Shown in pieces: positions 24,061-42,187 of a stretch of DNA of 43,176 nt. The first letter of the stretch is position 1. The number at the start of each line of letters is the position of its first letter. Source of the DNA: Terriglobales bacterium (lineage in GTDB: Bacteria; Acidobacteriota; Terriglobia; Terriglobales; Acidobacteriaceae); assembly GCA_035457425.1 (NCBI GenBank), contig DATIBR010000073.1, forward strand, positions 1 to 43,176, in the 5' to 3' direction. The position numbers and the translations under genes were made by a program. The notes beneath the pieces were generated by a model. It was not told the DNA's origin. It did not search any database and worked only from the letters and a program-made list of their open reading frames with translations.

Positions 24061-25842
24061 ATGAGCTACCAGGTCCTGGCGCGCAAGTATCGTCCGCAGA
24101 AGTTCTCCGACGTCATCGGGCAGGAGCACGTCACCCGGACGCTGAAGAACGCCATCGCGCAGGGCCGCATCGCCCACGGCTACATCTTCTCCGGACACCG
24201 CGGCATCGGCAAGACGACCGTCGCGCGCATCCTCGCCATGTCGCTCAACTGCAAGGCGGGCGACCACCCGCAGGCCGAGCCCTGCGGCGTCTGCGATTCC
24301 TGCCGCGAGATCCGCGAAGGCGCCGTCGGCGCCATGAACGTCATCGAGATCGACGCCGCCACCAACCGCGGCATCGACGAGGTCCGCGGCATCATCGCCA
24401 CCTCCGAAGGCCAGCCCGCGCGCGGCGACCGCTTCCGCATCTTCATCCTCGACGAAGCCCACCAGATCACCGAGGCCGCCTTCAACGCCCTCCTCAAGAC
24501 CCTCGAGGAGCCGCCGCCCTGGGTCGTCTTCATGCTGGCGACCACGCAGCCTGAAGACATCCCCCAGACCATTCGCTCGCGTTGCCAGCACTTCAGCTTT
24601 CACGCGGTGAAGTTCGCCGACATCGTCGGACAGCTCCGCGACATCGCCAAGGCCGAGAAGATCAAGGCCGACGACGACGCTCTCGCCGTCCTCGCCGAGG
24701 CCGGCGACGGCTCGATGCGCGACGCCCTCTCCATCATGGACCAGGCCATCGCCTGCTGCGGCACCACCCTCACCGCCGACCTCGTCCGCTCGCTCGTCGG
24801 CGCCGTCTCCACCGAGATACTCGAGCAGGTCATGGACGCCGTCGCCCGCAGTTCCGCCGATGACGCTCTGCGTCTGGTCGACAAGCTGGTTTCGGAAGGC
24901 CAGAGCCCCACGCATTTCGCCCGCCAGCTCGTCCGCTTCTTGCGCAACTCGCTTGTCGCCAAGGTTGCCGGTGGCGATTCCCCGCTGCTTCAGATCTCCA
25001 CCGACGAGCGCAGGCGTGTCGCCGCCCTCGCCGAACGCTTCTCCGAAGAAGATCTCGCGCGCTTTCTCAACATCATGCTCCGCACCGCCGACGAGCTCGG
25101 CTACCGCCAGGAGCAGCGCTTCCACCTCGAGCTCGGCATTCTGAAGATGGTCCACGCCCAGCGCCTCCTCCCGCTTGAGCAGTTGCTCAGCGCCGCCAAC
25201 ACGGTTGTGGCGCGCTCGCCCTCGAGCGCGCACGCAAACGTCGCGCCTTCGACCGGTGTAGCGCCCTCGACCTCGAGGGCGCCCGCCGCCACCTCACGCG
25301 CGCCCGAGCCGCCGCGCCTCTCCCCCTTCGAGCGTGACCGCGCTCGCAAGGGCGAAATGTCTTCCGCCAACGAAGTTGGAGCCCGGCCGCCGTCGGCCGC
25401 GCCCGCAGCCGCTGCCGTCGCAGTCGCCGAAGCGCCCGACCTCTCGCCCGACTCTCTGCGTGACCGCGTCGTCGCCGCGCTCGAATCCGCCGGCCAGCGC
25501 ACCCTCGCTTACATGCTCAGCGAAGGCGAGTGGCTGCTCACCGGCAACGAATTGCTCATCAACGTCCCCAAGTCGCCCGCCGTGGTGGACATGGCGCTGG
25601 GCCCAGAACCCAAGCGTTTGCTGACCTCCGCCCTCGCGGAAGCCGCCGGCCGTCCGCTCCGCTTCAAGGTCGTCGGCGTCGGAGCCAACGGTGGCAACGG
25701 CCACACCAACGGCAACGGCGCCGCCGCCAAGCCGCCCGCTTCGCCGCGCGGCCGCGTCGCCGACGAGCCCGTCGTCCGCCGCATGCAGGAAAAGTTCGGC
25801 GCCGAGATCCGCAGCGTCATCGACCACAAGAACAGAAAGTAG
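24061..25842 (+). CDS. dnaX: DNA polymerase III subunit gamma/tau DnaX
   Basis: The 593-aa clamp-loader ATPase has Walker A GHRGIGKTT (45-53), zinc Cys64, 75, 78 and 81, Walker B DEAH (131-134) and a sensor SRC motif near 181. Domains I-III end near residue 370. Residues about 380-450 are an Ser/Ala/Pro/Arg-rich linker whose DNA contains three palindromic repeats also found between genes in this window. The C-terminal tau-like part follows. The open frame extends upstream to 23800, but ATG 24061 gives the canonical MSYQVLARKYRP. ybaB and recR follow, the usual order. Confidence 0.97.
   Translation: MSYQVLARKYRPQKFSDVIGQEHVTRTLKNAIAQGRIAHGYIFSGHRGIGKTTVARILAMSLNCKAGDHPQAEPCGVCDSCREIREGAVGAMNVIEIDAATNRGIDEVRGIIATSEGQPARGDRFRIFILDEAHQITEAAFNALLKTLEEPPPWVVFMLATTQPEDIPQTIRSRCQHFSFHAVKFADIVGQLRDIAKAEKIKADDDALAVLAEAGDGSMRDALSIMDQAIACCGTTLTADLVRSLVGAVSTEILEQVMDAVARSSADDALRLVDKLVSEGQSPTHFARQLVRFLRNSLVAKVAGGDSPLLQISTDERRRVAALAERFSEEDLARFLNIMLRTADELGYRQEQRFHLELGILKMVHAQRLLPLEQLLSAANTVVARSPSSAHANVAPSTGVAPSTSRAPAATSRAPEPPRLSPFERDRARKGEMSSANEVGARPPSAAPAAAAVAVAEAPDLSPDSLRDRVVAALESAGQRTLAYMLSEGEWLLTGNELLINVPKSPAVVDMALGPEPKRLLTSALAEAAGRPLRFKVVGVGANGGNGHTNGNGAAAKPPASPRGRVADEPVVRRMQEKFGAEIRSVIDHKNRK
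25204..25231. repeat. Palindromic repeat family A inside dnaX, copy 1
   Basis: GCGCGCTCG/CGAGCGCGC (25210-25218 with 25223-25231, loop CCCT). The 28-base stretch differs from the intergenic copy at 37425-37452 at only two positions, including the flanking GTTGT. It is in frame and encodes part of the dnaX linker. Confidence 0.85.
25256..25283. repeat. Palindromic repeat family A inside dnaX, copy 2
   Basis: GTAGCGCCCTCG then CGAGGGCGC: a 9-bp stem (25261-25269 with 25274-25282, loop ACCT) of the same design as copy 1, with a GC-swapped stem. The intergenic 42802-42826 element begins with the same TGTAGCGCCCTCG. Confidence 0.8.
25371..25402. repeat. Palindromic repeat family C inside dnaX
   Basis: This 32-base segment beginning CGAAGTTGGAGCCCGGCC matches the terminator hairpin at 33807-33838 at 28 of 32 positions by eye, including the non-palindromic CGAAGT flank. 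It lies in frame in the dnaX linker. Confidence 0.8.
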
Positions 25843-26155: not shown

Positions 26156-26165
26156 GTTTCGGAGG

Positions 26166-26185
26166 GGCGCGGCTTCAGCCGCGCC
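26166..26185. repeat. Palindrome between ybaB and recR
   Basis: GGCGCGGCT-TC-AGCCGCGCC is a 20-base palindrome 10 bases after the ybaB stop, followed by GTAGCAGACGG. It has no T run, so it is not a clear terminator; it resembles the other intergenic palindromes here in size and in the adjacent GTAG. Confidence 0.7.
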
Positions 26186-32907: not shown

Positions 32908-32984
32908 GGGCGGTTAGCTCAGTTGGTTAGAGCGTCTGCCTTACAAGCAGAAGGTCGCAGGTTCGAGTCCTGCACTGCCCACCA
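32908..32984 (+). tRNA. tRNA-Val (anticodon TAC)
   Basis: 77 bases with encoded CCA. Acceptor GGGCGGT/ACTGCCC (one G-U), D stem GCTC/GAGC, anticodon stem TCTGC/GCAGA with loop CTTACAA (anticodon TAC), T arm GCAGG-TTCGAGT-CCTGC, discriminator A. All cloverleaf features are present. Confidence 0.97.
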
Positions 32985-33060: not shown

Positions 33061-33137
33061 GGGGACGTAGTTCAGTTGGTTAGAACGCTGCCCTGTCACG
33101 GCAGAGGCCGCGGGTTCGAGTCCCGTCGTCCCCGCCA
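33061..33137 (+). tRNA. tRNA-Asp (anticodon GTC)
   Basis: 77 bases with encoded CCA. Acceptor GGGGACG/CGTCCCC, anticodon stem CTGCC/GGCAG with loop CTGTCAC (anticodon GTC), T arm with GTTCGAGTC, and discriminator G as expected for Asp. It is 76 bases after tRNA-Val and probably in the same transcript; a TTTTTT (33141-33146) follows. Confidence 0.97.
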
Positions 33138-33796: not shown

Positions 33797-33815
33797 GGCT
33801 TCCCAACGAAGTGGT

Positions 33816-33847
33816 AGCCCGGCCGCCCTCGGCCGGGCTTTTTCTTG
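33816..33847 (+). terminator. Rho-independent terminator of the receiver gene (family C palindrome)
   Basis: 10-bp stem AGCCCGGCCG/CGGCCGGGCT (33816-33825 with 33830-33839, loop CCCT), then TTTTTCTT. The same sequence design recurs in the coding sequence of dnaX at 25371-25402. Confidence 0.92.
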
Positions 33848-33876
33848 TGGGTAGGCGCCGGCGACTCGCCGGCGCG
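33847..33876. repeat. Palindromic repeat family B, copy 1
   Basis: Stem GCGCCGGCG/CGCCGGCGC (33855-33863 with 33867-33875, loop ACT) preceded by GTGGGTAG. The whole 30-base block is identical to 42077-42106. Confidence 0.9.
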
Positions 33877-37396: not shown

Positions 37397-37424
37397 GACC
37401 CCGAGACTCTAGCACGCCAACGGA

Positions 37425-37452
37425 GTTGTAGCGCGCTCGCCCCCGAGCGCGC
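37425..37452. repeat. Palindromic repeat family A, intergenic copy
   Basis: GTTGTA then GCGCGCTCG/CGAGCGCGC (37431-37439 with 37444-37452, loop CCCC). It lies between divergent lytS-type and ribA genes, directly before the ribA -10, and is the closest relative of dnaX copy 1. Confidence 0.88.
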
Positions 37453-42076: not shown

Positions 42077-42106
42077 GTGGGTAGGCGCCGGCGACTCGCC
42101 GGCGCG
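42077..42106. repeat. Palindromic repeat family B, copy 2
   Basis: 30-base block identical to 33847-33876, starting 8 bases after the polX stop codon. A family A palindrome, CGCGCTCG/CGAGCGCG (42112-42119 with 42124-42131), follows 5 bases later, so two families stand in tandem. Confidence 0.9.
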
Positions 42107-42187
42107 TGTGCCGCGCTCGCCCCCGAGCGCGCATCTGCGTAGACTCTAAGCGGCCATCCTGCATCTCACGTTGTGCACGAGGAGCGT

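Follow-up and report, generated by a model that had tools for sequence, protein, structure and literature searches.

Palindromic repeats that invade genes are a known but uncommon phenomenon, of which the dnaX gene described here is a clear new case. The closest described counterparts are the GTAG REP/RAYT systems (PMC3733652, PMC2817692, PMC8266576). As far as the parts of these papers drawn on here describe them, those systems share with the present repeats, termed families A and B, the GTAG or GGAG foot, the 9 bp stem and the 4 nt loop, the dispersal of copies near the 3' ends of genes, the inverted flanking of a RAYT (found here in the related genome G055), and the presence of some copies within genes for replication, repair and RNA enzymes. 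In the same parts, placement near gene ends and intragenic REPs, many of them in replication and repair genes, are already on record (PMC3733652), and the REP-RAYT-iREP arrangement defines the REPtron (PMC2817692, PMC8266576). The sequences of families A and B, however, are absent from the families described there, the present host belongs to the Acidobacteriota, and many copies bear an extra CAAC-GGA-GTTG mini-hairpin on the 5' side. The TIRYT elements of Acidobacteria, e.g. Koribacter, as outlined in the main text of PMC3733652, have in common with the present case the phylum and the occurrence in the genus of Y1 transposases with unrelated TIRs, whereas family A and two further families, F4 and F5, consist of GTAG/GGAG-type REPs that adjoin RAYTs and are not TIRs.

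Intragenic palindromic repeats have also been published for Opitutus and for Rickettsia, and the first-pass annotation of this DNA rightly mentioned the latter. The Rickettsia elements, the RPEs (PMC3767692), are in-frame palindromic repeats in surface or flexible regions of conserved protein genes, and different groups of them occur close together in orthologous genes of related species, as is the case here. The two differ in that RPEs have a stated length of 100-150 bp and an unrelated host, while the elements described here measure 25-35 bp and are associated with RAYTs, as seen in a relative. Families A and B work like RPEs but are not classed as RPE, since their 25-35 nt set them apart from RPE-1 to RPE-7 by the stated length (PMC3767692). 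In the main text of PMC3733652 dnaX is absent, and none of the papers searched was found, at the level of main texts, to pair dnaX with such palindromes; as a REP host, dnaX appears unreported in them. With the present case, genes invaded by REPs in frame are documented in the Acidobacteriota as well, a single essential replication gene holding three copies.

Three palindromes in the dnaX linker

The window, i.e. the whole analysed stretch of 43,176 nucleotides, is contig C73 of the Koribacter-like acidobacterial MAG of a soil bacterium, a fragmented genome of 3.14 Mb in 192 contigs. The host gene, dnaX (24061..25842, plus strand), is intact and encodes DNA polymerase III gamma/tau of 593 aa, an assignment on which Pfam and NCBIfam agree. 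The genus was represented in the comparison by two genomes, and the closest genome compared was the sister G001, a MAG from groundwater that bears the label Candidatus Korobacter versatilis and whose DnaX is 84% identical.

Copy 1 (CAACACGGTTGTGGCGCGCTCGCCCTCGAGCGCGC; 25197..25231, plus strand) belongs to family A, encodes residues 379-391 (..VVARSPSSAH), and agrees at 32 of 35 positions with the intergenic copy G000:C177:10935 (L025). Copy 2 (GTAGCGCCCTCGACCTCGAGGGCGC; 25258..25282, plus strand; residues 400-408, VAPSTSRAP) represents a stem-swapped subtype of family A and has exact twins (25/25) on two other contigs, one intergenic (G000:C14:24871) and one in the N-terminal part of another gene (C52:56392). 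Copy 3 (CAACGAAGTTGGAGCCCGGCCGCCGTCGGCCGCGC; 25368..25402, plus strand; residues 436-448, ANEVGARPPSAAP) is a family B element matching 33804-33838 at 31 of 35 positions. All three share one orientation and one reading frame, and the hairpins of copies 1 and 2 reach about -18.6 to -18.8 kcal/mol each. The palindromes that the first-pass annotation had reported in the linker are real and matched elsewhere, and realignment returned its figures for 25204-25231 against 37425-37452 (26/28) and for 25371-25402 against 33807-33838 (28/32); the elements are longer than it had stated, however, extending over 25197-25231 and 25368-25402.

In the AlphaFold model of DnaX, which is shallow (31 sequences, pTM 0.40), pLDDT drops below 50 over residues 385-416 and again over 431-456, and a helix spans 422-431. 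The repeat-encoded residues fall in these two predicted disordered stretches, one on each side of the SPFERDRARK helix. The motif SPFExDxARK (window 25321-25350) is itself a conserved short predicted helix, the rest of the Terriglobales tau linker being disordered and variable.

Families A and B are GTAG-tagged REP elements. Their 34 copies in this genome align gap-free over 35 nt and have a common layout, in which an often present mini-hairpin (CAAC-GGA-GTTG) is followed by a GTAG/GTGG/GGAG foot, a 9 bp stem and a 4 nt loop. Across the alignment the foot is GTAG or GTGG, less often GGAG, GTCG or GCAG, in keeping with a GTAG REP as a palindrome of 20-50 nt. The main helix is paired in 95.4% of cells, and both-sided changes occur in 32 cells against 10.3 in shuffles, as is expected of a conserved hairpin. 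The copies are dispersed, moderate in number and mostly intergenic (24/34). The intergenic copies lie near gene ends, 14 between unidirectional, nine between convergent and one between divergent genes, in agreement with the placement on record for REPs (PMC3733652). They do not conform to rho-independent terminators, as TTTT follows within 12 nt in only 3 of the 24, and in none of the dnaX copies. In the window itself the genome scan located three intergenic elements, all on the plus strand: a family B copy at 33804..33838, which lies 17 nt past the upstream gene and is followed by TTTTTC in a terminator-like manner, a family A copy at 37418..37452, and a degraded family A copy at 42108..42132 that adjoins a repeat of another family, F2. 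A search of the window against Rfam left the repeats unmatched; its sole matches were two tRNA genes, at 32908-32981 and 33061-33134.

Genic copies and RAYT transposases

Gene calls were made with an in-house codon model trained on known genes, according to which 87% of the genome is coding. Only 9 of 27 family A copies and 1 of 7 family B copies lie inside called genes, which for family A amounts to strong gene avoidance (P about 1e-10). Besides the three copies in dnaX, single copies occur in glmM, ftsK, the lhr helicase gene, a rimO-like gene, the RNase R gene (rnr), a PBP2 gene (C-terminal tail) and a porin-like gene (N-terminal part). The presence of 3 of the 10 genic copies in one gene has a genome-wide P of about 4e-5 under the assumption of independent placement. 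The seven genic copies that share the orientation of their gene (five here, two in G055) all use the frame that gives V/G-A-R-S-P-S-S-A or variants of it. The repeat-bearing stretches comprise 41 residues in RNase R and 43 in RimO, against 6 and 8, respectively, in solved homologues, and the REP-bearing loops of GlmM and RimO are within about 3 aa of the length that they have in the sister. A search for clean empty sites in GlmM, RimO, RNase R and dnaX found none; loop length is almost constant between species, and at these places relatives have inserts of another kind. The sister genome yielded no RNase R. The RNase R loop (L252:3-2447; relatives L291-L293) holds a REP here, whereas its relatives have different insert-like peptides (TTEDTEQ, FTAEGAETAEKGQ) in that loop, which suggests that repeats can land there in general.

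A RAYT associated with family A is found in the related genome G055. An ORF on its stretch L321 passes the NCBIfam model for REP-associated tyrosine transposases (NF047646) with 82.1 bits at a cut-off of 80, and is accompanied by family A repeats at 1320 and 1355 downstream and by an inverted one at 1961 upstream, so that it is flanked by cognate REPs in the inverted arrangement of a REPtron. In the window's own genome no RAYT flanked by A or B was found; one of its RAYTs is flanked by F4-like repeats (G000:C159:115-507) and another by unrelated terminal repeats. F4 also flanks a RAYT in G055 (L323), and F5 adjoins a RAYT-like gene in the sister (L317) that scores 74.8 bits, under the cut-off. 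Several Y1 transposases of the genus have unrelated terminal inverted repeats. An F4 repeat (GGAGGGGCGCGGCTTCAGCCGCGCC) is also present at window 26161-26185, just 3' of the ybaB-like gene that follows dnaX.

Origin and retention of the linker copies

The sister linker is of similar length and has no A/B palindrome. It contains instead an F5 REP dimer (GTAGCGCCGGTGTCCCGCCGGCTGTGCCGCGGGCGTCCTCGCCCGCG) encoding SAGVPPAVPRASSP, which scores 37.5 where the null reaches 22 at most, and, after EQSS, an F5 monomer-like stretch (20/23) at the position matching copy 3; F5 has 31 matches in the sister and 9 in this genome. The linker varies between close relatives, with another REP family in the sister. 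Within copy 1, GCGCGCTCGCCCTCG aligns to GCACGCTCGCCCTCG, which is kept in the sister and could be the decayed remnant of an older copy 1. Among 93 linkers of the family, a stem of at least 9 bp occurs only in this genome and its sister; REPs thus make use of the linker in the genus and not in the family at large. The stem averages 5.57 over the 93 linkers and 5.50 in codon shuffles, and no hairpin excess was found in the 91 other Terriglobales linkers. A general Terriglobales hotspot in dnaX was rejected on these grounds, 91 of 93 linkers matching the shuffled null. The two sister species, each with its own repeats in this linker, offer a natural experiment in how mobile DNA makes new disordered protein sequence.

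The first-pass annotation had itself considered that a GC-rich linker, rich in Ala, Pro, Ser and Arg, might produce intergenic-like palindromes by chance convergence. The linker is indeed very GC-rich and of low complexity, and further intergenic palindromes are plentiful. Nevertheless, its local alignment scores to the A, A2 and B consensus were 27, 25 and 29, whereas the maxima in 2000 codon-shuffled linkers were 16, and none of the shuffled linkers came near the observed scores or gave equal matches. The core pattern of family A, scanned with up to three mismatches through 60 genomes, has 27 matches in the present genome of 3.14 Mb, one in the sister, 14 in G055 and none in the 57 others, although their linkers are similar; the reversed pattern, used as a control, had no match in this genome and one across all 60. 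Family B gave 7 matches here, 4 in the sister, 10 in G018 and 1 in G037. The scans drew on patterns run across whole genomes and on sequence stretches of about 0.36 Mb in total. Moreover, copy 2 is identical at two other places, the matches of copies 1 and 3 run on into the CAAC..GTTG flank, hairpin lengths of the other linkers equal those of the shuffled null, and relatives without these intergenic palindromes also lack long linker hairpins. The match of the linker palindromes to dispersed repeats is not due to chance, a reading whose probability the 60-genome scan, the 93-linker survey and the codon shuffles reduce to practically nil, and the view of the first-pass annotation that they are invading repeats stands.

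A co-opted function of the linker hairpins is improbable. On that view, hairpins in the dnaX mRNA would hold back ribosomes or transcription where gamma and tau part, and would so aid a short gamma-like product. In E. coli and Thermus, gamma arises by frameshift or slippage in the corresponding region of dnaX, and three strong hairpins stand exactly there. The only in-frame slippery heptamer, GGGCCCA at 25599, lies however 3' of the hairpins, A or T runs are absent, copy 3 has no T run, unlike its terminator-like relative at 33804, and relatives do without the hairpins. With no suitable slippery site present, programmed frameshifting or slippage at the hairpins was rejected. There is also very little to be said for the dnaX linker as the source of the intergenic repeats, or for a local duplication within dnaX as the origin of its three copies. 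Their common orientation and frame would fit such an origin, but they belong to different subtypes, each nearer to copies elsewhere than to each other, and G055 has family A, flanking a RAYT there, while its dnaX linker is without a long hairpin.

Taken together, GTAG-type REPs have very probably landed repeatedly in a permissive dnaX linker and have been retained because they remain in frame. Non-autonomous REPs mobilised by RAYT (TnpA-REP) transposases would land in the region for the disordered linker that joins clamp-loader domain III to the tau C-terminal domain. The copies would drop at random, by RAYT-type transposition or by REP spread in general, and RAYT activity presumably placed those in dnaX. 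Selection would then purge nearly all genic copies save those with an open frame in linkers or loops. The linker copies would persist because they are stop-free in frame and because the disordered linker tolerates their short Ala/Arg/Ser/Pro peptides, and their effect on DnaX is probably close to neutral. The near-constant loop lengths between species point to insertion followed by trimming, or to the replacement of earlier repeats; for the linker, repeated independent landing with later trimming may account for its near-constant length. As linkers and other host loops hardly differ in length between species and no clean empty site was found, we infer insertion from the homology to dispersed repeats. 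That the DnaX linker is, beyond being tolerated, a preferred REP target in the genus, its two disordered segments having been filled in two species by REPs of different families, seems rather unlikely; if true, it would imply a target preference of the transposase or selection for REP-encoded replisome linkers.

Further repeat families

F2 (GTAGGCGCCGGCGACTCGCCGGCGC) is a second REP family, at least as abundant, with copies at window 33851-33875 and 42081-42105. Inside genes it is read as the peptide RAGESPAPT; examples are the genes of a PMT_2-like glycosyltransferase (L015:13477-15165) and of a membrane protein (L027:7731-9278). Annotation calls for caution here: where a conserved protein contains a peptide such as VARSPSSA, AGVPPAVARAS or RAGESPAPT, a translated repeat can lie behind it. 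F3 repeats (GTAGAGACGGCCTTCTGGCCGTCTC) form close inverted pairs resembling REP dimers (L014:11308-11358, L019:8085-8135, L024:15514-15578).
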